NCBI GenBank assembly: GCA_002686955.1
Contig: NYZA01000244.1
Location: 1 to 22,560, forward strand
Direction: 5' to 3'
DNA from: Gemmatimonadota bacterium
GTDB lineage: Bacteria; GCA-2686955
DNA: 22,560 nucleotides
The notes beneath the pieces are model-generated. The model had not been told where the DNA came from. It was given only the letters and a program-made list of their open reading frames with translations, and ran no database searches. A program made the translations under genes and the position numbers. Shown here piece by piece: positions 700 to 13,038 of this stretch; positions within the stretch are counted from its first letter, which is position 1; each line of letters opens with the position of its first letter.

Positions 700-1479
700 A
701 TGACCCGCGATCCGGAAACACGGCCGACCCCGCAGCTCCCCGGTCTTGCGATTGTGCTGGTGGAGCCGCGGGTTCCGGAGAACATCGGAGCCGTTTCCCG
801 CGCGATGATGAACTTCGGCCTCTCGGAGCTGCGCTTGGTCGCGCCGCGCTGCAACCACCTCGGGCGGGGCGCGCGAGCGGTCGCGGTGGGAACCGACCGG
901 ATTCTGAAAGGGGCGCTGCTCTTCGATGATCTGGGCGCCGCGGTGGGCGATCGAGGCACGATCATGGCAACGGTTCCTCGGCGTCCGACTCGGTCCTACG
1001 GCCTGATCCCCGCGCGGGAGGCCGCGCCACTCTTGATCGAGGCCGCCCTCCCTCCGGCGACCGCCGCCATCGTCTTTGGCCGGGAAGACAACGGTTTGAC
1101 CGCTGAAGAGCTGAGCCTCGCCTCACAACATGTGGCGATTCCCACCGCCGACGACTACCCCGTTCTGAATCTGGCGCAAAGCGTGCTGCTCGTTGCCAGC
1201 GAGCTCTACTCCGCGATGGAGCCACCCCGGCCGGCCGGTCGAAAACACCCCTCTCCACCGGCGCCCAACGACGAGATCGAAGACACCCTCGATCACCTCG
1301 ATCGAACGATGAAACTGCTTCGCTGCCCCGCGGCGCGCAGGGAGAGGATCCGCCGAGATCTGGCCGAGGTGCTCACTCGGCTACCATGGGAAACGAAGCA
1401 GCTCTCCGTACTGCACACCATCCTCCACATGTTCGACGTCTACGATCTCAAGGAGAAGTGGCGCCGTCCTCCGAGCTGA
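700..1479 (+). CDS. trmJ: TrmJ-like tRNA (cytidine/uridine-2'-O-) methyltransferase
   Basis: A SPOUT-class (TrmH family, group 1) 2'-O-ribose methyltransferase of 259 aa, probably acting on nucleotide 32 of tRNA anticodon loops with SAM as donor. The three family motifs are visible: LVEPRVPENIGAVSRAM (20-36; N28 and R34 correspond to the catalytic/tRNA-binding positions), IVFGREDNGLT (124-134), and IPTADDYPVLNLAQSV (147-162; the knot loop that binds SAM). The C-terminal helical extension (190-255) is typical of TrmJ rather than TrmL. The frame is open upstream to a GTG at 646, but that lies inside the tRNA, so ATG 700 is chosen; no clear Shine-Dalgarno precedes it. It sits directly behind a tRNA gene and its 3' end overlaps the convergent DUF2058 gene by 32 bp. 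The family assignment is firm; the exact target nucleotide is inferred. Confidence 0.9.
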   Translation: MTRDPETRPTPQLPGLAIVLVEPRVPENIGAVSRAMMNFGLSELRLVAPRCNHLGRGARAVAVGTDRILKGALLFDDLGAAVGDRGTIMATVPRRPTRSYGLIPAREAAPLLIEAALPPATAAIVFGREDNGLTAEELSLASQHVAIPTADDYPVLNLAQSVLLVASELYSAMEPPRPAGRKHPSPPAPNDEIEDTLDHLDRTMKLLRCPAARRERIRRDLAEVLTRLPWETKQLSVLHTILHMFDVYDLKEKWRRPPS

Positions 1480-2068
1480 AGAAGAGCACTCTGCGGCGAT
1501 CCAACTCGAGCAGCTGCTCAACCGCCGCTTTCGGCATGAGCCCCAGCTCGGCCTCGTTCGGTCCAGGCGTCGACGTGGCGGGGCCGCCGGCATAGACACG
1601 ACGCGTGCGCCGTCCGAAGGTCTGGGGCGTTCGCTCCGGGGCGAGCAGGTTGCGCAGGTCGGCATCGATCGAGACGAGGGCATGCTCGCCGGAAACGATA
1701 GACTCGTGCTGCTCGGCGCAGATTTCGACCTGACGCACTTGCCTGGAGCCGTCGACTACGAAGTTCAAGACCGCATCACCCTCGCGAAGTGGAACAAGCT
1801 CCGCGCGATAGAGCTCGGCCACCCGCGCCGCAGAGCTCATCGCCTGGGGGGGCTTGGGTGGCCGCTCCTTCTTCTTCGAAGGTCGTTTCTTCCCATCTTT
1901 CGGTTTCGACTGGGTCTTGCGCTCGGCTCCCGGTTTCGCCGGCCCATTCTCGCCGCCCTTTCCCTTCCTTCCCCGGGATCTCTTTTGATCGCGATCCGCT
2001 CGTTCAACATCTCCCGCCGAGACCAATCCGGCCTTCAGCAACTGCTCTCGTAGGCTGTTCGTCGACAT
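1448..2068 (-). CDS. DUF2058 (YaiL-like) family protein
   Basis: A 206-aa protein matching the DUF2058/YaiL architecture. The N-terminal helix SLREQLLKAGLVSAGDVERA is very close to the start of gammaproteobacterial YaiL. A Lys/Arg/Pro-rich, probably disordered linker follows (about 28-75). The C-terminal domain (about 80-200) contains the family-like stretch AVLNFVVDGSRQVRQVEI and ends near LELDRRRVLFFSS. YaiL-type proteins have been called nucleoprotein/polynucleotide-associated, but their biochemical role is not established; the basic linker is compatible with nucleic-acid or ribosome binding. Only 10 bp separate it from the upstream lipoprotein gene, so it is probably the last gene of the operon containing the Clp-RF2 fusion. 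No strong Shine-Dalgarno is seen, in keeping with translational read-on. Its 3' end runs 32 bp into trmJ on the opposite strand. Confidence 0.75.
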   Translation of the reverse strand: MSTNSLREQLLKAGLVSAGDVERADRDQKRSRGRKGKGGENGPAKPGAERKTQSKPKDGKKRPSKKKERPPKPPQAMSSAARVAELYRAELVPLREGDAVLNFVVDGSRQVRQVEICAEQHESIVSGEHALVSIDADLRNLLAPERTPQTFGRRTRRVYAGGPATSTPGPNEAELGLMPKAAVEQLLELDRRRVLFFSSEDGATSP

Positions 2069-2078
2069 GGCAACGCTT

Positions 2079-3860
2079 TTACCAGAGCCCCGCCAGCTCG
2101 ATCAACGCAATATCGTACGAGCCACCCACCGAGTAGACCAACGAATGCCCGTCCGGCATCCAGTCCGGTCCCCGCCGTGCCTTGCCGACCTTCGAAACCA
2201 AGAGCCTCGGGCCGCCGCCCTTCATCGGGGCGAGATAGAGATCCGAGTTGCTGGGGTCGGTTCTTTGGAACGCTACATAGACGCCGTCAGGAGAGAAGGA
2301 GGGTGCGGTGTCGGCGGTCAAAGGGTCCGATCCGAGGGTGAGTGGACGCTGCTCGCCGGTCTCGAGGTTGAACATCTCAATTCCGGGGGATTCACCCCAT
2401 TGAACGCTGTATACGATCCAATCGAGATCTTTCGATAGGGAAGGGTAGAGGGGCTTGCCGTCCCGTCCCGCATCGAGCAATACCGGCTCGCTCTCGGCGT
2501 CTTCGATATCGAGGCGATAGAGGCCGGTGGTTTCGTTCCGATTCGATGCGAAGATCACGCTCTTTCCGTCGGGAGTGAAGCTCGGCGTTTGATCGTCCGC
2601 CGGATCGGTGGTGAGCCGTCTCTCTCTGAGGCCGGGGAATGTCCGCAGATAGATGTCCAAATTGCCTTCACGTCGCGACGAGAACGCAAAGCTCAGGCCT
2701 CCGGGGGACCAGACGGGATCGGCGTTTTCCCATCGGTCCTCGGTCACGCGCCGCCGCTCCGTCCTCTCCGGTCGAATATCGGCGACCTCCAGGTCGCCAT
2801 TGCAGCAATAGAGCACGAGCGTGCGTTGGGGAGAGATGGCCGGCTGCGTCAGGTCGTGCAGCGGATCGCGCAGAATCGAATGCGGAGGCTTGTCCTCCTG
2901 ATTCAGCCAGATCCACTCCAACGCCGCCGGGTCGTAGCGCGTTACGAGAACCGCCCGGTCCCCCATCCACGATGGGGATGAGCCGAGGGGCGGATCGCCG
3001 TCGGTCGCTCTGAGGCGCCGCTTCTCCGTCTCGAGTATGCGAACGACACGCCCCCGCGAGGAGTGCTCGTCGACGGCCACCCATTTGCCGTCCGGAGACC
3101 ATGCGGGATGGCTCGGGTCGTTGAGATCGACCGCAACGGTTGTCGGCTTCGATCGATCGAGGTCTCCCAGCATCAGCACCCCCTTCTCACCGACGACGCT
3201 TCTGAAGAAAAGATGGCTGCCGCCGGGGTCCAGTGCCGGTTGCCTCTGGTCCCCCGGCCCGCCGTAGAGGAGTGTGGGCTCGCCGCCGATCAGGTCGGTC
3301 CGGTAGATATCGAGTCCCTCGGTGGTCCCTTCGAGTCTCCTTGCGTACAGGATCGCATCGCCCGAGGGCAGCCAGATCGGATCGAGCGCCTGTTCCCCCT
3401 CGGCGGTGAGCGGATTGGGATCCCCGCCGCGTGTGGGCAAGACCCAGATTCGGGTTTCGACGCTGTCCGGAAGTGTGTCGGCATCGAGGCGCAGGCGCCG
3501 GAGGTCGTGCGCTTTCCCCGATGCCTGCTGTCCCTGCCCGTCCGAGGCGCCCACGCAGAGAATCCGCTCACCATCCGGCGAAACCCGCGGAGTCGCGACC
3601 CGAAGCCCCTCTTGGGAAAGGCGATGGGGAAGGTCGGAGCCGTCCTCCAGCGAATGGAGAGCGGGGCCGGTCCCCAGATCGGCCACATAGACGAAACGGT
3701 CGCCGGCGCGTTGCGCGTCCCTCTCATCGGCGGGCGTGACCAGGAGATCTTCCTCGCGAAAACGGACCGCCGCGGGAGCCCGCTCCTCGTCCGCCTGCCC
3801 CGAACAGGAGGCGATGAGGGCGGAGGTCGTCCCGAGAACGATGGCCGCGCGGCTGCTCAT
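2079..3860 (-). CDS. PD40/TolB-like beta-propeller lipoprotein
   Basis: A 593-aa exported lipoprotein. The N-terminus is a lipoprotein signal peptide with lipobox IASC, making Cys19 the lipidation site. The rest is a string of PD40/WD40-like blades of the TolB type, each with an (S)PDG turn followed by a beta strand: RVSPDGERILCVG (92-104), WSPDGKWVAV (254-263), VWSPGGLSFAFSSRREGN (383-400), SFTPDGKSVIFASN (427-440), SFSPDGVYVAF (521-531) and DWMPDGHSLVYSV (566-578), plus more degenerate blades. It probably forms one or two propellers in the periplasm or at the outer membrane, mediating protein contacts; it lacks any catalytic domain. Its ATG overlaps the stop of the upstream Clp-RF2 fusion (ATGA), indicating translational coupling, and DUF2058 follows 10 bp later. 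It is not TolB itself: there is no Pal/TolA context, and it is longer than TolB. Confidence 0.85.
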   Translation of the reverse strand: MSSRAAIVLGTTSALIASCSGQADEERAPAAVRFREEDLLVTPADERDAQRAGDRFVYVADLGTGPALHSLEDGSDLPHRLSQEGLRVATPRVSPDGERILCVGASDGQGQQASGKAHDLRRLRLDADTLPDSVETRIWVLPTRGGDPNPLTAEGEQALDPIWLPSGDAILYARRLEGTTEGLDIYRTDLIGGEPTLLYGGPGDQRQPALDPGGSHLFFRSVVGEKGVLMLGDLDRSKPTTVAVDLNDPSHPAWSPDGKWVAVDEHSSRGRVVRILETEKRRLRATDGDPPLGSSPSWMGDRAVLVTRYDPAALEWIWLNQEDKPPHSILRDPLHDLTQPAISPQRTLVLYCCNGDLEVADIRPERTERRRVTEDRWENADPVWSPGGLSFAFSSRREGNLDIYLRTFPGLRERRLTTDPADDQTPSFTPDGKSVIFASNRNETTGLYRLDIEDAESEPVLLDAGRDGKPLYPSLSKDLDWIVYSVQWGESPGIEMFNLETGEQRPLTLGSDPLTADTAPSFSPDGVYVAFQRTDPSNSDLYLAPMKGGGPRLLVSKVGKARRGPDWMPDGHSLVYSVGGSYDIALIELAGLW

Positions 3861-6800
3861 GGGGCGGTGGGCTCCGCCGCGAGCGCCGCGAGGATGAAGT
3901 CGTCGATCTCTCCATCCAGCACCGCCCGCACATCGGTCGACTCGTGCTCACTTCGCGGATCCTGGACACTTCGCCGACCGATCAGCAGCACATTTCGGGC
4001 GATCGTCGCCAGCTCGTCGTCGTTCACATCCGACTCGGCCAGTCCGGCGGAGAAGGCGGCCGCCAGCTCTTCCGCCGCCGGGCTCTCGAGTGAGGTGCGC
4101 AAGCTCCAGCGCCGGTCTTTGACGCGGAACGATACGATCCCCCGTGGCGCGGAGATGAATTTCGTCTTCGAGGAGCGGCTCGCGCGGTAGCGAAGGTCGT
4201 TCGGGCGCGGCGGATCGCCCTGCGGCTCCGGGATCACATGAATCCGCGCCACGACGGTGCTCCTTTCACCATCCGGTCGGGTCTGAACCCGCCGGTGGGT
4301 ACCGGTCTCGCGCCGGAGCAATCCAAAAGCGAAGGCGCCATCGATGTGCAGCACCGCACTCCCCCGGGTCGATCCCCGAAAACTCCTCTCGCCGACGATT
4401 TCAGCCTCCATGCCGCGGCGGGTCCCCCAGCGCTCGTAGAGGCAGGCCAGCTCGTTCACCCAGGCTACATCATCGGGCGTATGGTCTCCCGCGGTGAGGA
4501 TCACGAATGCGCTCCTGACATCGCCGGGCATCGAGAGCAGGGTTTCCAGCTCCATCTCTTCCGACTTCAGCTCGATCTCGGCAAGCTTCTGGTCCGCTTC
4601 GGGGAGCAGCTCGCGGTGCCCCTCTCCCACCAAGTCGGCCAGCAGCGCAGCCTCCTCCAGCTCGACCCGAACCGCTCGGTCGCGATCGAGAAGGCGATTC
4701 TGCTCCGCCAAGGAGCGCAGAACCGATGTCGACGTTTCGGAATCGTCCCAAAAACCGGGTCTTTCCATTTCGCGACGAAGCTCCTCCGCCCTCTTTTGGG
4801 CGGACGGGATCCCGAGGCTTTCGGCGAGGTGATCGATGCGCGCCTTCGTCGCCTCGATCGCCTCCAAGATCGCCTCGAGGGAGCGATGCTCGCCCGCTTC
4901 GGCGGCTTTTGCCACGAGACCCGGTGATGCCGCGACCTCGTGCACGACTTCGGCGACCACCGAACCTTCTCGTGAAACGAGGCGCACCGTGTCTTCGGTC
5001 GAAAGGGCATGCCCGGCGAGCAGCCGGGCCAGAGGCACCGCCACGAGCTCTTCGACGGCCCGCTTGAGCTCGCGGGCGCCGTATCGTCCACTCTGTCCTC
5101 GATCGAGGACCAGATCGGCGACGCTGGGATCGGTCTCCACCACGATTCCACGACGGACGACCCCTTCGCGGGCGATGCAGCGCCCGATTTCGCGAAGAGC
5201 GACCGTGCGAAGATCGTTCAGGGAGAGACGGCGGAAGGGAACGACGCGGTCGATCCGATTCATGAACTCGGGACGGAAGAAACGCTGCACTTCTTCGCGG
5301 ATCGCCGCGGCCTCGGCGGCGGCGCGGTCGCGGGTGAATCCGAGGCCGCCCTCCGTGCCGCGATCGGAGCCGAGATTCGAGGTCATGATGATGACGCTCT
5401 CGTGGAAGCCCACGGTTTCGCCGCGCGTGTCGGTCAATCTACCCTCGCCCAGCACCTGTAGGAGCAGATCGAAAACGCGCGGATGGGCCTTTTCGATCTC
5501 GTCGAAGAGGATGACCGAAAGAGGATTCTCCCTTACGGCGCCGGTCAGATGCCCGCGAGCACCGGCCGCCCCCTCGCGGGCTTCGATCAGACGGTCGACT
5601 GCGAGCGGATCGGAGAACTCGCTCATATCGAATCGCAACATCCTTTTCTCGTCGGCGAAGAGATAGGCGGCGAGCACCTTGGCCGTCTCGGTCTTGCCGA
5701 CACCGGTCGGCCCGGTGAAGAGGTAGGTGGCGATCGGGCGCTGCGGATCCTGGAGCCCGGTTTTCATGCGCGCAACCGTGTCTTGCATCGTGGAGAGCGC
5801 GTCGTCCTGTCCCAGGATCCGTTCTCTGAAGAAGGTGCGTGTCTGCTCCAGATCGAGTGTTTCGGAGTCGAGCACCAAGAACTTCGGCAGTCCGGTCTTG
5901 AGGCTGAGCTCACGGGCCACGTCCTCCGGTGTGACGAGGCTTTCCGATCCCTCCCTTACGGTTTCGAAGGCGGTTCGCAGTAGATCGATCCCCTTCGCGG
6001 GGAATCGTTCGTGTCGCAAAAACCGGGCACTCAGGTCGATGACGCGGTCCACCGCCGCGGATTCGATCCTGGGGCCTTCGTTTCTGCGGATCCAGGAGCG
6101 CGCCGCCAGCAGGATCTCCCGCACCTGCCGCCGCTCCGGCTCCTTCACGTCGACGAGTGTGAGCGCCCGAGCGAGCTCCGGGCGACTGCGAAGCATGCGT
6201 CGCAGAGGTTCGGGGTTGCCGTCGGCGATCACCGTGAGCTGATCCGCGGAAAGCAGGGGCGCAAGCGCGCCGGCCATATCCTCTTCATGCGCGCGCGTGG
6301 CGCCGGCGCCCATCAGATGATGGAAGCGGGGGATATAGATGATCGTCCCGGGAGCGCGACGCGCTTCGTCGACCAGGCGGGTGATTTTGGTCTGCCACTC
6401 TCCCAGGTACTTGATATCGGTCTGCAGCGCGGTGGGGGAGAGCTCGAGGATTCGGCTCTCTTTAAGCGGCTCAGGGCATTCACCGGCCGCGATGCGTCGC
6501 GCGACTTCGTTGATCAGCGCAGTCTTGCCCACTCCCGGCTCTCCGGCCAGGAGGACCGAACGTCGCGCCGGTCGCGACAGGACCCGTATGACGCGGAGAA
6601 CGAGCTCATCCGATCCTCGCCAGGGCAGGGAGCGCTCCGCGTCGACCGTCATCGGACGGGCGTTCACCGAGAGCACGTCCTGCTCACTCCCGCCCGCCGG
6701 ACTGGTCACACTGTCGCCGGCCGGCATCGGCGAACCCGACTCGATCCGTGTCTCGAGGGTTTGAAGCGCCGCGGCCAACTCGGGATCATCGAGCCGATCG

Positions 6801-7894
6801 CGATCGATCTTGGCCAGAAGCTCAGCCGACTCCTCGCCGTCTCCGTATTGATCGAAGAGCAGTCGCGCCAGATCGAGGCGCGACTCCGCGTCATCCGGGT
6901 CGACGCTGATCGCATCGCGAAGCCAGCGCTCCGCCATCGGGAAGTTTCCGCGAGCGATGAAGAAGAGTGCCGTTCCAAGGTGAATGGAGGCCGGGCGAGG
7001 TGTCTCGATGGCCGCGAGGACCTCTTCGATCGGTCTGCCGTCCGATTCCGCCGCCCATTGCTCGATGACGAGCGAGGAGGGCGCATGGTCGAAGGCATCG
7101 ATTCCTGCGAGCAGCAACGCTGTTCCCGTTCTTCGGTTCCCACCGAGCAGCTCGATCCAGCCGAGCTCGCGCAGGTTGTGCGGGTCGTGGCCGTGGCGGG
7201 TGAGCTTGGTGAGGTGGGCGGCGCGGGCGAACTCCGGACGGCGCACGTGATCCCAGAAGATCAGTCCCAAGGGCAAGTAGGCTTCGGCCGCGGGGGACGG
7301 ATGGACGACAGCCGCGGCGAGCGCGCTGATTGCGAGATCGAGGTCGCCGTGTGCCTGGGCCAACATGCCGAGGCGAGATTGCAGCTCGGCGTTTCCTTTG
7401 TGCTCCCCCAGAGCGCGGGCCGCCTCTGCTCGCGCTTCCGCGCGCAAGTCGAGTCGCTCGAAGATCTCGATCGCATCGAGAGAGACGGCAATCTCCTGTG
7501 GAGCGCGGTTCCGCGCCTTTCTCGCCCAGTCCGCGGCCGACTCTCCGTCCTTGGCCAAGATGCAGAGTCTGGCCAGCTCAAAACAGGGGTCGGCGTCGTC
7601 GGGGCGGAGCTCGACGAGTCGCTGATAGAGGGGGGCGGCCTCGTCGAGCTGATCGAGGTCGATCAGGGCCGCCCCCTCGAGCGCGATCAGCTCCGGATCG
7701 TTCCGCCGAATCTCCGGATCGATCTCCGAGAGCAGCTCCATTGCCGCCTCGCCTCCGGACGATTCCAGCGCCGCGCGAATCTCCGATTTCGTCTCTTCGA
7801 CCGCTCCGTTCTTCTTGTTCGCCTCGCCTTTTTTCGCTCTCACCGTAAGGTTGCTCTCTCTGCTGGGTTGCCCCTGAAGCACCGCGCCTCCCAC
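3857..7894 (-). CDS. TPR - ClpA/B-type double AAA+ - RF2-like fusion
   Basis: A single 1345-aa frame. Residues about 40-390 are TPR-like helical repeats in place of the Clp N-domain. AAA1 (about 425-665) has Walker A GEPGVGKT (451-458) and pore loop KYLG (495-498), but its Walker B reads IIYIPRF (518-524) with the D-E pair replaced by P522-R523. AAA2 (about 680-985) has Walker A GPTGVGKT (728-735), Walker B ILFDEIEK (795-802), sensor-1 MTSN, Arg finger FRPEFMNR and sensor-2 GARELKR, but the pore motif GYVG is GAAG (775-778). Walker A spacing matches ClpA, so there is no M-domain. Residues about 1004-1340 align along their length with RF2: PCRF helices, LERWG-like and RRETGTHRRV segments, and C-terminal VRAVLDGEIDDFI. 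The GGQ loop is deleted and SPF is absent. GTG 7894 follows GGAGGA closely; GTG 7882 or 7843 are alternative starts. Domain calls are firm; function is inferred. Confidence 0.93.
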   Translation of the reverse strand: MGGAVLQGQPSRESNLTVRAKKGEANKKNGAVEETKSEIRAALESSGGEAAMELLSEIDPEIRRNDPELIALEGAALIDLDQLDEAAPLYQRLVELRPDDADPCFELARLCILAKDGESAADWARKARNRAPQEIAVSLDAIEIFERLDLRAEARAEAARALGEHKGNAELQSRLGMLAQAHGDLDLAISALAAAVVHPSPAAEAYLPLGLIFWDHVRRPEFARAAHLTKLTRHGHDPHNLRELGWIELLGGNRRTGTALLLAGIDAFDHAPSSLVIEQWAAESDGRPIEEVLAAIETPRPASIHLGTALFFIARGNFPMAERWLRDAISVDPDDAESRLDLARLLFDQYGDGEESAELLAKIDRDRLDDPELAAALQTLETRIESGSPMPAGDSVTSPAGGSEQDVLSVNARPMTVDAERSLPWRGSDELVLRVIRVLSRPARRSVLLAGEPGVGKTALINEVARRIAAGECPEPLKESRILELSPTALQTDIKYLGEWQTKITRLVDEARRAPGTIIYIPRFHHLMGAGATRAHEEDMAGALAPLLSADQLTVIADGNPEPLRRMLRSRPELARALTLVDVKEPERRQVREILLAARSWIRRNEGPRIESAAVDRVIDLSARFLRHERFPAKGIDLLRTAFETVREGSESLVTPEDVARELSLKTGLPKFLVLDSETLDLEQTRTFFRERILGQDDALSTMQDTVARMKTGLQDPQRPIATYLFTGPTGVGKTETAKVLAAYLFADEKRMLRFDMSEFSDPLAVDRLIEAREGAAGARGHLTGAVRENPLSVILFDEIEKAHPRVFDLLLQVLGEGRLTDTRGETVGFHESVIIMTSNLGSDRGTEGGLGFTRDRAAAEAAAIREEVQRFFRPEFMNRIDRVVPFRRLSLNDLRTVALREIGRCIAREGVVRRGIVVETDPSVADLVLDRGQSGRYGARELKRAVEELVAVPLARLLAGHALSTEDTVRLVSREGSVVAEVVHEVAASPGLVAKAAEAGEHRSLEAILEAIEATKARIDHLAESLGIPSAQKRAEELRREMERPGFWDDSETSTSVLRSLAEQNRLLDRDRAVRVELEEAALLADLVGEGHRELLPEADQKLAEIELKSEEMELETLLSMPGDVRSAFVILTAGDHTPDDVAWVNELACLYERWGTRRGMEAEIVGERSFRGSTRGSAVLHIDGAFAFGLLRRETGTHRRVQTRPDGERSTVVARIHVIPEPQGDPPRPNDLRYRASRSSKTKFISAPRGIVSFRVKDRRWSLRTSLESPAAEELAAAFSAGLAESDVNDDELATIARNVLLIGRRSVQDPRSEHESTDVRAVLDGEIDDFILAALAAEPTAP

Positions 7895-7946
7895 ACTCCT
7901 CCGGCGAGAGAGTACGGGAGGCGGGGGAGGAAGTGGAGAATCCGCG

Positions 7947-8981
7947 CTACTGAATCGTCACCTCGTAGCGGTCCCACTCCAACGTATCGTCCAAGCTCGT
8001 GCCGATCCAGGCCGCGACGCTGTAGGTTCCGGTCGGAGCGGCCATAGGGATCGGGAAGTTCATGGTGTATGTGTCGACGTCTCCCGACATGATCGAGTAG
8101 CTGTCCTGGAAGATCGGATTGGGGCCGATCTGGGTGCCGTTCCGGTAGGCGATCATCCAGATCTCGAGATCCTGATCGTTCCGGCTGATGTTCCTCATGT
8201 CGATCGGCACGGAGAGCATGTCGCCTCTCGAGACCGTGAAACTGTCACCATCGACATCCATCGGCACCTCGGAGAGCCGTTTCGCGCCGAGGATCTCCTT
8301 GTATTCGGGCTCCTGCACATAGACGACGACATTGAGATCGTCCTTCTTCCACGCGCCGTTGATCGAGATCGACTGGCTGAAATAGGTCATGCTGCCAACG
8401 TTCTTCCCGTTCAGGTCGATGTTCGCGACATGGTCGCGCAGAACGCCGTTGTAGTGGCGACTTCCGGCCGTCAGGTCGTTTTCGGTGAGCGCGATACGGA
8501 GCTCGGGGGTTCCTTGTTGCCAGAGTTGCTCGATGACCTCGACCGAACCCTGCACCGTCCAGGTGTTGTTGCCGGTCATGTCGCCGGTGAGCCGAATGTC
8601 GACCATCGGATCGTAGTTGCGCCGGCCGTTGAAGCGTTGGCGATAGGTGTTGTACATCGGACCGCCGGCCCCGATGACCTTGGTAATGCCGCCGAAGATC
8701 ATGGTCGGCGTTCCAGGATTCCCGTAGTAGGACCGACGAGCGTCGCCATCGGCGTTCGAGAGCGCATCGCTCATGTGGTACTCGATGAAGATGGTGCCGG
8801 CGCGGCCCTCCTCTACTCGGAGTTGCTCGGCGGCGGCGTCGGCCTGAGGGCAGTAGCCGCACCACGACGCGGTGACCAGCTCCATCGCGACGCAACGGGG
8901 AATGATGTCCTGGGCGGCGTGGGCCGGGGAAAGCGCGACGCCTCCCATCACGGCGAGGGCGAGATATGCGTGCTTGGTCAT
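7947..8981 (-). CDS. Omp28-like exported thioredoxin-fold protein
   Basis: A 344-aa secreted protein. The signal peptide ends near SPAHA-AQ (about 22). The thioredoxin-like domain carries the redox motif WCGYC (Cys41, Cys44) and the cis-Pro loop GTPTMIFGG, as in the Omp28 family of FCB-group bacteria. The remaining ~230 residues are beta-rich Ig-like modules without recognised catalytic residues. ATG 8981 is chosen over the longer frame because it starts the signal peptide and is preceded by GGAGAG seven nt upstream. It follows the DUF6029-like barrel gene by 40 bp and precedes the Clp-RF2 fusion by 52 bp without a visible terminator, so all may be co-transcribed. Its partner at 11227-12951 is a longer paralogue of the same type. 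It lacks a FlgD-like tail, so it may be periplasmic or attached differently. Confidence 0.82.
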   Translation of the reverse strand: MTKHAYLALAVMGGVALSPAHAAQDIIPRCVAMELVTASWCGYCPQADAAAEQLRVEEGRAGTIFIEYHMSDALSNADGDARRSYYGNPGTPTMIFGGITKVIGAGGPMYNTYRQRFNGRRNYDPMVDIRLTGDMTGNNTWTVQGSVEVIEQLWQQGTPELRIALTENDLTAGSRHYNGVLRDHVANIDLNGKNVGSMTYFSQSISINGAWKKDDLNVVVYVQEPEYKEILGAKRLSEVPMDVDGDSFTVSRGDMLSVPIDMRNISRNDQDLEIWMIAYRNGTQIGPNPIFQDSYSIMSGDVDTYTMNFPIPMAAPTGTYSVAAWIGTSLDDTLEWDRYEVTIQ

Positions 8982-9021
8982 TCGGTTCTCTCCAAACGAG
9001 AAATGGAGTGGTCGGTGAAAG

Positions 9022-10671
9022 CTAGAAGCGTTGGAGCAGCTCCATCCGCCAGCCTTGGAAGGGCTGGATGAATTTGCAGGTTCCGCCGCGGCACACCACA
9101 CCGCCCCGTTCTCGGCCGAACTGGAGTCCAAGACGCGACTGCTGGGTGATATCGAGGTCGACCCCGGCGATCCAGTAGAAATCCTCCAGCGGCTCCAATG
9201 CTCCTTTATAACCCACAGCCTCCCACTGCTCAGCCTCGTTCGTTCTCTCGTAGCTGACGAATGCCGACAGCCATGGGGATCGAGAGTAGGTCAGCGTGCC
9301 GATTCCATCGTGAAATATGGGCGGCCGATCATCCGGGAAGTCGCTTCGGAAGAGCTCCGCGAAACGGCGGTCATCGGTCCTTTGATACTCGAGCGCGACG
9401 ATCAATCCGTGCACCTCCCCCAGCTCGAGCTCATTGGTCAGGCCGAGGGTCTGCTGCGTCTTCTGGGCTCCGAGATGCCCGTCGACGGTCAGATCGGCAA
9501 CCAGATGCGCCGACCAACCTTCTCGCACGGGATGATCGACTCTGAGAGTCAGCTCTTCGATCGTGTTGGTGAGACTTCCGGAGAACCCTTCGAATCTCAC
9601 CCACCGCGGCCAGGCGAGCTCGACCTCGTCGCCGCCCCCAGCGAGATCGAAATACGACCGATCACCGGTCTGCAGATAGAAGAGCGAGAAAGAGCTGCCC
9701 GCGTCGGTCTCGAAGGCACCCTCGAGCGAGAATCCGAGCTCGTTGTTCTTGTTGACCAGGAACTGCTTGCGATTGAGTGTCGCGAGATCGGATATCGGCC
9801 GCAGTGAAGGCGGCTCCGACCAGGGAACGCCCACACCCGAAAAGGTCGACGTAAACGACTCTTCGCCGAATGCGTAGTTCTTGTAGGCCGCGGTCAGGGT
9901 GAAATCATCGAACCAGCGGTCGATCTCGACGAAAAACCCGCTTCCGGAAGGTCCACCGCGGGGGGCGCCGGAGATTCGAAGCCAGTTGCGAACGACTTCG
10001 CCATAGACCGATCCCTGATCAAAATCGGCGCGCAGCGTTGTAAGGCTTTTGCGGTTGATGTGCTGGCTCTCCCCCGGCACTCCATCGCGCGTCTCGACAT
10101 AACCCTGCCCGAGCTCCAGCCAGTCCATTGCCCGGTAGGTGCCGTGCACCGCCCCCACGCGGTCGCGGCGATACCCCTCGGGGAAGTCGAATTGAAGGAA
10201 GTTCCCAATCCCCCCCAAGAGGCGCAGAGAGTATCGGTCGACCCGTCTCTCCAGCAAAACCCCTTCGAGCTCTCGATCGACATTGACGGCCGGATCTTCG
10301 TAGAGATTCAGGCCGAGTCCTCGTCCGAGAAGCGCGCCAAACGATCCGACGCGCAGGTGGTTGGTGCCGTCCTCGTACTCGAGGAAGCGCTTGCGGACTC
10401 CGGTGTACTCGTCGCCGTAGAAGAAGGGATCGAGATGATCGAAGCGTCCGCCCAGGACCCAATTCTCCCAGCGCAGCTCGAGTGTCAGCCGGCTCTCCAG
10501 CACCTTCTTGTCCTGGTCGACGGGGCTGAGCCCTTCGAACACCGACTCGTCCCCGCGCTGAATCCACATCGATTCATGCCCGCGAATGGAAACCTCGCCG
10601 ATCTCGAATGCCGTGGCGACAGGGGCCGCGGCGGCAACGCCGACAAATGCGGAAACGCTGCGTGTCATCAT
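9022..10671 (-). CDS. DUF6029-like outer-membrane beta-barrel protein
   Basis: A 549-aa protein with an N-terminal signal peptide (cleavage near VATA-FEIG), many alternating amphipathic beta strands rich in aromatic and charged residues, and a C-terminal Phe (MELLQRF), the usual Bam recognition signature. Length and strand pattern fit the DUF6029 barrels found next to Omp28/TlpA genes in FCB bacteria. A feature worth noting is a CRGGTC motif 23 residues from the end (Cys527, Cys532), which could form a small disulfide loop before the last strand. The start is coupled: ATG 10671 overlaps the TGA of the upstream TlpA-like gene (ATGATGA), and no independent Shine-Dalgarno is visible. No ligand or transport role can be read from the sequence. 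The barrel assignment is stronger than the specific DUF number. Confidence 0.78.
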   Translation of the reverse strand: MMTRSVSAFVGVAAAAPVATAFEIGEVSIRGHESMWIQRGDESVFEGLSPVDQDKKVLESRLTLELRWENWVLGGRFDHLDPFFYGDEYTGVRKRFLEYEDGTNHLRVGSFGALLGRGLGLNLYEDPAVNVDRELEGVLLERRVDRYSLRLLGGIGNFLQFDFPEGYRRDRVGAVHGTYRAMDWLELGQGYVETRDGVPGESQHINRKSLTTLRADFDQGSVYGEVVRNWLRISGAPRGGPSGSGFFVEIDRWFDDFTLTAAYKNYAFGEESFTSTFSGVGVPWSEPPSLRPISDLATLNRKQFLVNKNNELGFSLEGAFETDAGSSFSLFYLQTGDRSYFDLAGGGDEVELAWPRWVRFEGFSGSLTNTIEELTLRVDHPVREGWSAHLVADLTVDGHLGAQKTQQTLGLTNELELGEVHGLIVALEYQRTDDRRFAELFRSDFPDDRPPIFHDGIGTLTYSRSPWLSAFVSYERTNEAEQWEAVGYKGALEPLEDFYWIAGVDLDITQQSRLGLQFGRERGGVVCRGGTCKFIQPFQGWRMELLQRF

Positions 10672-11189
10672 TGTTGGGCGTCGGTGCCCGGGGCGGCGGA
10701 CAGGAGTTTTTTGATCTCCGCCTCGATCTCATGCTCGTCCCCTGGACGATAGCCGGTAAATGTCCGCACCGATTGCCCCTTCTTGTCCACCAGAATGTTC
10801 GTGGGAAGCGCCGCCACACTCATTCGCTTCGAGTACTGCCCCTGCGGGTCGAGCAACACCGGATAGCTGAGCCCGAGCTTGCGCGCCGCGGGCTTCACTT
10901 TTCCGACCGAGCTCACATTGTCGACGCTGATCGCGACAACCTGCAAACCCTGAGCCTTGTACTTCTCGAAGAGCTTGATCAAATGTGGCGCTTCTTGCTT
11001 GCATGGCTTGCACCAGGTCGCCCAAAAGTTGATCAACAAGGGCCCCTTGCCAAGATAGTCCGCGAGCTTTGCGCGGCCGCCGTTCATCTTCTCGAGATTG
11101 AAAGTGGGCGTCTTCTCCGCGGCCAGGGCGGAGGGGATCGAGAGGGCCGTCAGTATCAGGGCGATGAGTGTGGCGCGAATTAGGCGCAT
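10668..11189 (-). CDS. TlpA/ResA-like thiol-disulfide oxidoreductase
   Basis: A 173-aa exported thioredoxin-like protein. The signal peptide is about residues 1-23 (hydrophobic LIALILTALSIPSALA). The redox site is FWATWCKPC (Cys60, Cys63), the cis-Pro is in AALPTNILVD (Pro129), and the AhpC/TSA-Redoxin-type insertion of the TlpA/ResA group is present. Such proteins keep periplasmic cysteines reduced, for example in cytochrome c maturation or for partner redox proteins; no ccm/ccs gene is nearby, so the client is more likely one of the co-encoded Omp28 or barrel proteins (inference). GGAG lies about 6 nt before ATG 11189. It starts 37 bp after the Omp28-FlgD gene and its TGA overlaps the ATG of the DUF6029-like gene. 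Confidence 0.9.
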   Translation of the reverse strand: MRLIRATLIALILTALSIPSALAAEKTPTFNLEKMNGGRAKLADYLGKGPLLINFWATWCKPCKQEAPHLIKLFEKYKAQGLQVVAISVDNVSSVGKVKPAARKLGLSYPVLLDPQGQYSKRMSVAALPTNILVDKKGQSVRTFTGYRPGDEHEIEAEIKKLLSAAPGTDAQQ

Positions 11190-11226
11190 GAAGGTCTCCG
11201 CGAGAAGGGCCGCTGAGCGTGTCGGA

Positions 11227-12951
11227 TCACTTGAGCAGGAGCATCCGGCGGGTCTGGCTGCTCTCGCCTGTGGTCAGGCGGTAGAGATAGACGCCGCTCG
11301 GCAATGAGAGCCCCTGAGCATTGGTGCCGTCCCAGACGACCCTGTGATGTCCGGCGGCCTTGGGGCCATCGACCAGGCTCTTCACCTCGCGCCCGCTCAG
11401 ATCGAAAACTCTGAGCTGCACCCTTTGTTCGTCGGTCTCGACCTCGTAGGTCAGAGTGGTGCGAGGATTGAAAGGGTTTGGTTGATTCTGATGCAGCAGG
11501 GTCGCGGTCGGGCGGGGCAGTCCTCGATCGTCTCCTTCGATGCCGACGGCGCCCACGGGCACATAAATCGTATCGATGACGACCGCTCCCTCGCCGTCGG
11601 TGAAGGTCTGGGCGAACGCCAGCGTCGAACCGGGCACCACATCGACATCGAGGATGAATCGACCTCCGCTTCCGTCCACCGTAGCGTCCTTTTCGATGTC
11701 GCCGTAGGCTTCATCCGCTTCGATAATGATGACGCTCGGATCGGTGATCGTGAGCTCCGAGGTCACATCGTATGCGATGAATGGCCCCGAATTGTGGGCG
11801 CGAGTGATGAACTCGATCGCCTCTCCAGGCTCAGGAATTCCGTTTCCATTTCCGTTGCTTCCACCCAGGTCATCGTCGTCGATCAGCAGCTCGGCGACCT
11901 CGAGAGCCACCGCGCCGGAGCGGGCGGTGTAGGTTGAGCCCTTGATGACATCGTAATTCTCGCCGTACTTCATGAAGAAGCTGCTCGTGATGGTCGGATC
12001 GGTCGCGCCGATGTCGACCCATTGGAGCTTGACCGTGACGGTCGAATCGGCCGGCATCGTCAGGTCGAGAGAATCGGGGAGGCAGATTCCCCACTCCAGG
12101 ATGCAGAATGTCGCCAGCCAACCCTGGGCGGTGAGGTCTTCCATCTGCATCCGCATGTCGATCGGATAGGAATTTGGGTTGGTGAGGTAGGTGTTGATCG
12201 TTCGCGATGAATCTTCCACTGCCGTCACCAACTCCTCGGTCGACGCGAACTCGGTGAAGAAGAGGCGCGTGGACTGGTCGATCCGTCTGTCGGCGTGATC
12301 TTGCACGAACGCGACGACCTCGAGCGCGGGGGTCTTCCACTCCTCTGCGATGGCGAACGACCCGGTGAAGACGGCTTCGTCGCCCTTCTGAACCAGCCCG
12401 GCCAGCTCATGGGAGACGATGCGGCGAACGACCGGGCGCATCTCCTCGTTGTCGTCGATCAGCCCGCGCTCCCCGAGCGCCACATAGAGCTTCGGATCGA
12501 CGTAGTCGGGTGGAGCATCCGCCAGAGCAAGAACCGTGTAGTCGACCCGGTCGCCGGCGACTGTCCCGGTCATCGAGAGCTCGATCTGCGCCTCTTCGAC
12601 CATGTCGGCATCGATTCGGTTCTTGTAGTCGTCGTAGACCTCATCGTAGCCGCCCACGATCTTCCGGTTGCCGTCGAAAGCGGTGGTGGGAGTACCGCTG
12701 ATGTTGTAGTAGCTGATCCTGCTGTTCGACTCCGCATTCGAGTACTCGTCGTTCACGTGGTAGCTGATCACGACGAAGCGGTCGTAGTCGTACTCCCCTT
12801 CGAGATCGTGGAGGGCGGACTCCGCCCAAGGGCAGTAGCCGCACCATGTAGCGGTCATGAGCTCCGCCATGACACTTCGATCCGCGGCCCGGGCGGAGCC
12901 GGCGGCGAGAGCGATCGTGCAGGCGAGGGCGATTCTGGGCGCGCGCTTCAT
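11227..12951 (-). CDS. Omp28-like thioredoxin-fold protein with FlgD-like sorting tail
   Basis: A 574-aa secreted protein. ATG 12951 begins a clear signal peptide (KR...ALACTIALAAGSARA) and has AAGGA upstream; the longer frame from 12981 would spoil it. The thioredoxin-like Omp28 domain has WCGYC (Cys37, Cys40) and cis-Pro motif ISGTPTTAFDG (Pro88). The middle (about 110-475) is Ig-like/CARDB-type beta sandwich with an acidic Asp/Gly/Asn-rich segment (DDDDLGGSNGNGNG). The last ~95 residues are a FlgD-type Ig domain with hallmark pieces QNQPNPFNP, VFDLSGREV and SGVYLYRLTTG, ending in MLLLK; such tails act as secretion/anchoring signals related to type IX sorting domains. It is the first gene of the minus-strand cluster and probably its promoter-proximal member. 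The redox role is inferred from the CxxC. Confidence 0.88.
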   Translation of the reverse strand: MKRAPRIALACTIALAAGSARAADRSVMAELMTATWCGYCPWAESALHDLEGEYDYDRFVVISYHVNDEYSNAESNSRISYYNISGTPTTAFDGNRKIVGGYDEVYDDYKNRIDADMVEEAQIELSMTGTVAGDRVDYTVLALADAPPDYVDPKLYVALGERGLIDDNEEMRPVVRRIVSHELAGLVQKGDEAVFTGSFAIAEEWKTPALEVVAFVQDHADRRIDQSTRLFFTEFASTEELVTAVEDSSRTINTYLTNPNSYPIDMRMQMEDLTAQGWLATFCILEWGICLPDSLDLTMPADSTVTVKLQWVDIGATDPTITSSFFMKYGENYDVIKGSTYTARSGAVALEVAELLIDDDDLGGSNGNGNGIPEPGEAIEFITRAHNSGPFIAYDVTSELTITDPSVIIIEADEAYGDIEKDATVDGSGGRFILDVDVVPGSTLAFAQTFTDGEGAVVIDTIYVPVGAVGIEGDDRGLPRPTATLLHQNQPNPFNPRTTLTYEVETDEQRVQLRVFDLSGREVKSLVDGPKAAGHHRVVWDGTNAQGLSLPSGVYLYRLTTGESSQTRRMLLLK

Positions 12952-13038
12952 TCCTATATCCTTGGAGACGGTGTGCTTCAAATAGGGCTATGAATGCAGT
13001 ATGGGCTGATTAGTATGGTAAGCGTATGAGCGCCCGTG

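Follow-up and report, generated by a model that had tools for sequence, protein, structure and literature searches.

In the present study, we analysed a 22,560-nucleotide stretch of DNA (the window) from contig NYZA01000244.1 of a Gemmatimonadota bacterium (GCA_002686955.1), which encodes a protein joining a Clp/Hsp100-type AAA+ ATPase to a C-terminal region resembling the translation terminator RF2 (herein, the fusion). Its reading frame on the reverse strand begins with GTG and runs through 1345 codons with zero internal stops; translation may actually start some codons after this GTG, as the homologue in G001, a genome of the same family, begins later. Pfam matches were obtained for tetratricopeptide repeats (TPR), AAA (residues 447-560), AAA_2 (719-883, E 3e-47), ClpB_D2-small (913-971) and PCRF (1033-1210, E 3e-19). 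No Clp N-domain was among the Pfam matches shown, and the Pfam search gave no match to PF00472, the GGQ-bearing RF-1 domain. These results confirm the initial annotation, made from the sequence alone, in which TPR, two ClpA/B-like AAA+ modules (D1 and D2) and an RF2-like region share one frame. The motifs RRETGTHRRV, VRAVLDGEIDDFI, YRASRSSKTKF (from nt 4189 downwards) and RPDGE at the SPF position were located where that annotation had placed them (Table 1).

The same protein is encoded in G001, with 60% identity over 1319 aa. Searching for the same domain order, as the initial annotation had proposed, revealed the same architecture in at least six phyla, so that the two halves are not always separate, and the distribution is patchy. 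Of the 146 genomes sampled in the phylum of G029, 60 gave a match at E<=1e-22. One family accounts for 59 of the 60, and nearly all of its sampled members carry the fusion; we take this family to be the Myxococcaceae from full-length matches to GltE (gliding equivalog) in 12 of 13 genomes. The fusion is also present in 10 of 80 genomes in the phylum of G026, in 1 of 5 in that of G052 and in 2 of 8 in that of G369; among the 61 genomes of the phylum of G562, it was observed in G562 and in a relative nearly identical to it, with a 987-aa frame in G626 as a further candidate. When 386 genomes were scanned with a profile of the entire AAA-RF protein, the fusions took the top ranks, and those of G369 and G562 came to light. 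A scan of genome contigs for the RF part brought up ordinary RF2 genes, and the search of a plasmid collection gave ordinary RF2-like matches only and no fusion. Several copies come from genomes assembled as one contig (G167, G143, G201, G171 and G210), and several of those in Myxococcaceae are on finished chromosomes. In maximum likelihood trees, all fusions fell on one side of a branch, both for the RF parts against 49-51 ordinary release factors (Shimodaira-Hasegawa-like approximate likelihood ratio test, SH-aLRT, 99) and for the AAA parts against 15 ordinary Clp ATPases that these genomes also encode (SH-aLRT 100). Long branches were flagged in both trees, and therefore tree support alone is no proof of common origin; the losses common to the fusions, described below, point the same way as the single origin seen in the trees. 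We regard the fusion as a member of an old, separate family of Clp/Hsp100 ATPases that carry an RF2-derived pseudo-enzyme permanently at the C-terminus.

Further relatives were also noted. A second, diverged paralogue, cut by the contig start, is present in the window's own genome (G000:C136:1-729; L124:1-729), with an RF part that is 42% identical and devoid of GGQ. G362, and in part G495, carries two tandem Clp-like genes (L259:2914-7212 and 7223-10279), neither with GYVG. The end of the second gene resembles a decayed RF domain 2 by eye (LLRAEIGIHRL), and hhalign against the fusion RF profile gave a probability of 6%, so that kinship of the C-terminus is suggested by eye only; the two genes are possibly a still more eroded branch of the family. 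A related gene in G476 (L258, ~4600-6300) has GPTATRKTE as its D2 Walker A and a frame broken by TAG, indicating a pseudogene or a sequence error.

The two AAA+ modules of the fusion have diverged from ordinary Clp ATPases in different ways. The motif table comprised 24 aligned fusions (D1 visible in 23) together with G369 and G562, giving 26 in total, and the 15 ordinary Clp ATPases encoded alongside the fusions served as controls. In D1, Walker A is kept, and the normal Walker B pair DE is never present (23 aligned fusions, G369 and G562): the first acid is replaced by P, R or Q in 23 of 23 and the second position is mostly D or R, with E in two members, and the pair reads ED in G369 and RD in G562. 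The D1 Arg finger is lost in the aligned fusions. A KYxGE-like loop is retained in the window fusion, in G369 and in most of the G026 lineage, is lost in Myxococcaceae and is altered in G562. Because the ATP-binding motifs are kept and the normal Walker B pair and Arg finger are absent, D1 is probably a nucleotide-binding scaffold. In D2, Walker A, Walker B, sensor 1, the Arg finger and sensor 2 are all kept, and D2 is therefore read as the motor, with predicted ATP hydrolysis. The D2 pore loop GYVG, present in 15 of 15 controls, is found in none of the 26 fusions. Pore-loop tyrosines of both rings are important for substrate processing in ClpA and ClpB (PMC5540906). Since the D2 aromatic pore loop is absent, classical grip-and-pull threading by the fusion is unlikely, and the argument of the initial annotation from the threading activity of Clp rings is weakened, the D1 Walker B being degenerate as well.

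A tripeptide of hydrophobic residue-G-F lies between D2 sensor 1 and the Arg finger in all 26 fusions (LGF in the window, IGF in G369 and WGF in G562), with G and F as the sole invariant columns of an otherwise variable loop; the initial annotation had not noted this motif. Its offset equals that of ClpA proteins of the same genomes (G143 and G029), and it is absent from one ClpB (G029_C52) and two ClpV-like proteins with readable loops. ClpA, ClpC and ClpX dock on ClpP through such a tripeptide, which ClpB and Hsp104 do not have (PMC5540906; PMC12521514). Docking of the fusion on ClpP is a testable prediction from this motif, not a result.

The C-terminal part of the fusion matches prfB with E 2.7e-40 (138 bits against a curated cut-off of 370) and E. 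coli RF2 with 8e-22 over nearly the full length. An AlphaFold2 model of the window RF part alone, run with an alignment of 49 ordinary RF2 sequences, gave a predicted local distance difference test score (pLDDT) mostly of 85-98 in domain 1, high values in the 2/4 core and values <50 for most of domain 3 (fragment residues 241-309), and Foldseek and VIA-align placed the model on RF2 (1gqe, Z 22.2). An RF2-only alignment biases the model toward an RF2 answer, which counts against the interpretation favoured below; the sequence statistics are independent of the model, and their E-values agree with it. The structure prediction called for by the initial annotation is thus consistent with an RF fold being kept in domains 1 and 2/4. 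The "full-length" RF2-like region of that annotation holds for these domains but not for domain 3, which is a degenerate remnant. Where at least 90% of 96 ordinary RF2s agree on a residue, it is retained by the fusions at 33-51% of the positions in domain 2, 44-67% in the C-terminus and only 5-24% in domain 3, and domain 3 is wholly missing in the G026 and G052 lineages. The residues Y152, L192, E195, G197, H199, R324, D335, G351 and D354 (E. coli RF2 numbering) are kept in all fusion groups; G250 and Q252 (GGQ), F207 (SPF) and the decoding-tip glycine G137 are lost in all. The loss of GGQ seen by the initial annotation is conserved: no fusion group has a domain 3 GGQ, and the one GGQ string of the G001 homologue (SAGGQSKED) occupies the decoding-tip position, outside domain 3. 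Because this loss is conserved, the fusion cannot, on its sequence, work as a normal release factor. The window genome also encodes ordinary GGQ-domain proteins, namely RF2 (C178), RF1 (C119) and a short ArfB-like protein (C109), and since these stand separately, the fusion is an extra protein and not the termination factor. Between Myxococcaceae, the ratio of nonsynonymous to synonymous substitutions (dN/dS) is 0.06-0.27 in every RF sub-region. The RF part, although without GGQ, is thus under purifying selection for something other than catalysis.

Table 1. Features of the fusion gene and its downstream neighbour in the window.
Feature	Position (nt)	Strand	Evidence
Fusion protein, TPR - AAA+ D1 - AAA+ D2 - RF2-like	3857..7894	(-)	single frame, 1345 aa; domain matches; conserved elsewhere
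TPR region, residues 68-378	6761..7693	(-)	Pfam, comparison of N-termini
D1 Walker A GEPGVGKT, residues 451-458, kept	6521..6544	(-)	motif alignment
D1 pore loop KYLGE, residues 495-499, kept in the window fusion, lost in Myxococcaceae	6398..6412	(-)	motif alignment
D1 Walker B position, IIYIPRFHH in place of hhhhDE, acidic pair lost	6317..6343	(-)	motif alignment, with ordinary Clp ATPases from these genomes for control
D2 AAA+ module plus D2-small domain (residues 719-971) with intact ATPase motifs	4982..5740	(-)	Pfam, motif alignment
D2 pore loop 1 position, residues 771-782, EAREGAAGARGH instead of GYVG	5549..5584	(-)	motif alignment with ordinary-Clp control
Acidic pair DE of the D2 Walker B, retained (residues 798-799)	5498..5503	(-)	motif alignment
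LGF tripeptide (residues 851-853), placed where ClpA/ClpC have their ClpP-docking motif	5336..5344	(-)	loop alignment; motif per PMC5540906, PMC12521514
RF2-like region, residues 1004-1345	3860..4885	(-)	Pfam, prfB/RF2 matches, fold model, structure comparison
Helical RF domain 1 (residues 1006-1118), modelled with confidence as an RF fold	4541..4879	(-)	model pLDDT mostly 85-98
RF domain 2 core, residues 1128-1227, with RRETGTHRRV; tip AGDHTPDDVAW replaces GxGGTEAQDW	4214..4513	(-)	alignment, model
SPF position, residues 1206-1210, RPDGE instead	4265..4279	(-)	alignment
Remnant of RF domain 3 (residues 1228-1296) with the GGQ loop deleted, modelled at low confidence	4007..4213	(-)	alignment, model
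C-terminal RF segment within the 2/4 core (residues 1297-1340), VRAVLDGEIDDFI	3875..4006	(-)	alignment, model
Downstream gene, PD40 beta-propeller lipoprotein-like, 4-nt overlap with the fusion	2079..3860	(-)	frames, neighbour comparison

Each partner of the fusion is known; what appears to be undescribed is their conserved union with the loss of both signature activities. No description of an RF2/Clp fusion was found in a search of 5.39 million open papers, and the terms ClpA and ClpB are absent from a 2019 survey of release factors. Eight clpA/B/C copies have been counted in Myxococcus (PMC11423568), one of which may be the fusion. The fusion resembles ClpA and ClpC in its two AAA+ modules, its D2-small domain, its intact D2 ATPase motifs, the same offset of the tripeptide and the lack of a ClpB-type middle domain, but differs in the degenerate Walker B and Arg finger of D1, the missing GYVG, the added RF2-like C-terminus and the lack of a Clp N-domain match. 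The D2 sequence is similar to that of ClpB/Hsp104, and the best NCBIfam score was obtained with the ClpB equivalog (403 bits against a cut-off of 1232); however, the fusion has no insert of middle-domain size between D1 and D2 and no GYVG, and carries the ClpP-type tripeptide. Torsins, which are Clp-related AAA+ proteins, have also been reported without substrate-gripping pore loops (PMC7773337), and one Myxococcaceae fusion has a weak Pfam Torsin match (E 0.003). This common absence does not imply kinship; torsins are eukaryotic, have one AAA+ module instead of two and contain no RF domain. RF2 itself shares with the fusion the domain order, the fold of domains 1 and 2/4 and the C-terminal motif, whereas the fusion lacks GGQ, SPF and the decoding tip, has a degenerate or absent domain 3 and is part of a larger ATPase. 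The archaeal-eukaryotic Dom34/Pelota is a catalytically dead release-factor relative in ribosome quality control (PMC6514570); this is a functional analogy only; Dom34/Pelota belongs to an unrelated fold family and has no AAA+ fusion.

Herein, we tentatively propose, as the most likely reading, that the fusion is an ATP-driven, non-classical Clp remodeller, perhaps linked to ClpP, with the pseudo-release factor as its docking module. From the motif states, the RF-like sequence, the predicted fold, the selection and the distribution, we infer a hexameric ring with ATP hydrolysis, a docking partner and a contact to ClpP. In this ring, D1 would serve as the nucleotide-binding scaffold and D2 as the motor, and ATP hydrolysis in D2 would act as a conformational switch, the motor having shifted from threading to remodelling. 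Up to six dead RF2 modules would be presented as docking domains and might bring the ring to a partner of the kind recognised by release factors, most likely the region of the ribosomal A site and GTPase centre or another translation component. In ordinary release factors, domain 1 contacts the GTPase-associated centre. At this site, the ring might remodel or evict something and possibly pass material to ClpP, although the sequence of binding, remodelling and hand-over is only what we infer. The ribosome is the natural first guess because the dock derives from RF2, and ribosome docking is a plausible prediction. A more specific and rather doubtful version is that of a ribosome-docking Clp machine, in which the dead release factor is a built-in A-site adaptor and stalled or idle ribosomes, or factors bound to them, are remodelled with optional hand-over to ClpP; this would be, in effect, a fused bacterial ribosome quality-control ATPase.

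Several points weigh against a remodeller docked by its release factor. The RF2 surfaces best known for contact with the codon and the peptidyl transferase centre are those that have been lost. The predicted N-terminal membrane helix of some members is odd for a general ribosome factor. Neighbour clusters compared across phyla had none in common and no translation genes conserved next door, and therefore the gene context gives no support to a role in translation. In addition, we know of no precedent for a ClpP-docking motif without a threading pore loop. As the codon-reading residues are lost, an off-ribosome adaptor is nearly as likely, and it is a possibility to be taken seriously that the RF2-derived domain was exapted as a protein-protein adaptor or as an oligomerisation or regulatory domain of a Clp-type remodeller with no tie to translation. 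The joint loss of the decoding tip, SPF and GGQ, the retention in all groups of residues that look like fold-core residues and the complete disappearance of domain 3 in two lineages are consistent with such an exaptation, as are the predicted membrane anchors and the unconserved neighbours. On the other hand, six phyla have retained domain 1 together with the 2/4 core as one unit, and we know of no RF2 fold that functions off the ribosome.

Besides these two readings, the fusion might be a working ATPase of a ClpP-linked threading protease, in which the pseudo-RF recruits ribosome-bound or translation-factor substrates that ClpP degrades once they have been unfolded through the loop of D1 or a diverged one in D2. 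The conserved tripeptide, the intact D2 motor motifs and the KYxGE-like loop kept in part of the family would fit, but GYVG is lost in every fusion, the D1 loop is lost or altered in Myxococcaceae and G562, and pore-loop tyrosines are important for substrate processing in ClpA/ClpB (PMC5540906), so that we consider this unlikely. RF2 ancestry is what speaks for a factor still able to hydrolyse peptidyl-tRNA, in the rescue of stalled ribosomes or in release; this candidate was rejected, being highly improbable and close to refuted by the absence of GGQ from the domain 3 position in all fusions and by the missing domain 3 of two lineages. The artefactual joining of a clp gene and a prfB gene has a negligible probability: the window comes from a draft genome of 270 contigs, but the same fusion with the same losses recurs across six phyla or more, the window's genome has a separate, ordinary RF2 gene with GGQ, and an assembly join is excluded because several copies sit on single-contig genomes.

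The fusion would provide a bacterial example of a Clp-type ATPase that has lost its threading loop, as reported for torsins, and it opens the question of whether a dead release factor can serve as a ribosome-targeting tag for a Clp ATPase. An unfoldase and a translation terminator have been fused and both stripped of their signature working parts, yet the product is under selection in several phyla. Since the sampled Myxococcaceae widely carry the fusion, the genetically tractable Myxococcus could be used to find its role.

The N-terminus of the fusion varies by lineage, with TPR in the window fusion and G369, near nothing in Myxococcaceae and different or absent regions in others; therefore, the common core is D1-D2-RF. 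A membrane helix is predicted at the N-terminus in the fusions of G052, G210, G244, G249 and perhaps G215, and it starts several fusions of the G026 and G052 phyla (L119, L169, L173, L175 and L177), suggesting membrane-anchored versions. Regarding the gene surroundings, apparent common downstream genes of the fusions proved to be antisense open reading frames and were discarded. The downstream beta-propeller gene is probably not a functional partner, because it is not adjacent to the fusion in G001. A DUF2058 protein is encoded near the fusion at window positions 1451-2068, and G001 has a DUF2058 gene directly after its fusion. Window positions 7950-12981 hold a block of genes for two Omp28-like proteins, one TlpA-like thioredoxin and one DUF6029 protein; in G001 this block also lies upstream of the fusion, with its order kept. 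RNase J was observed near the fusion in two Myxococcaceae only: on the same strand and 6 nt apart in one genome (L160:2881-7422), and ~3 kb away in another.

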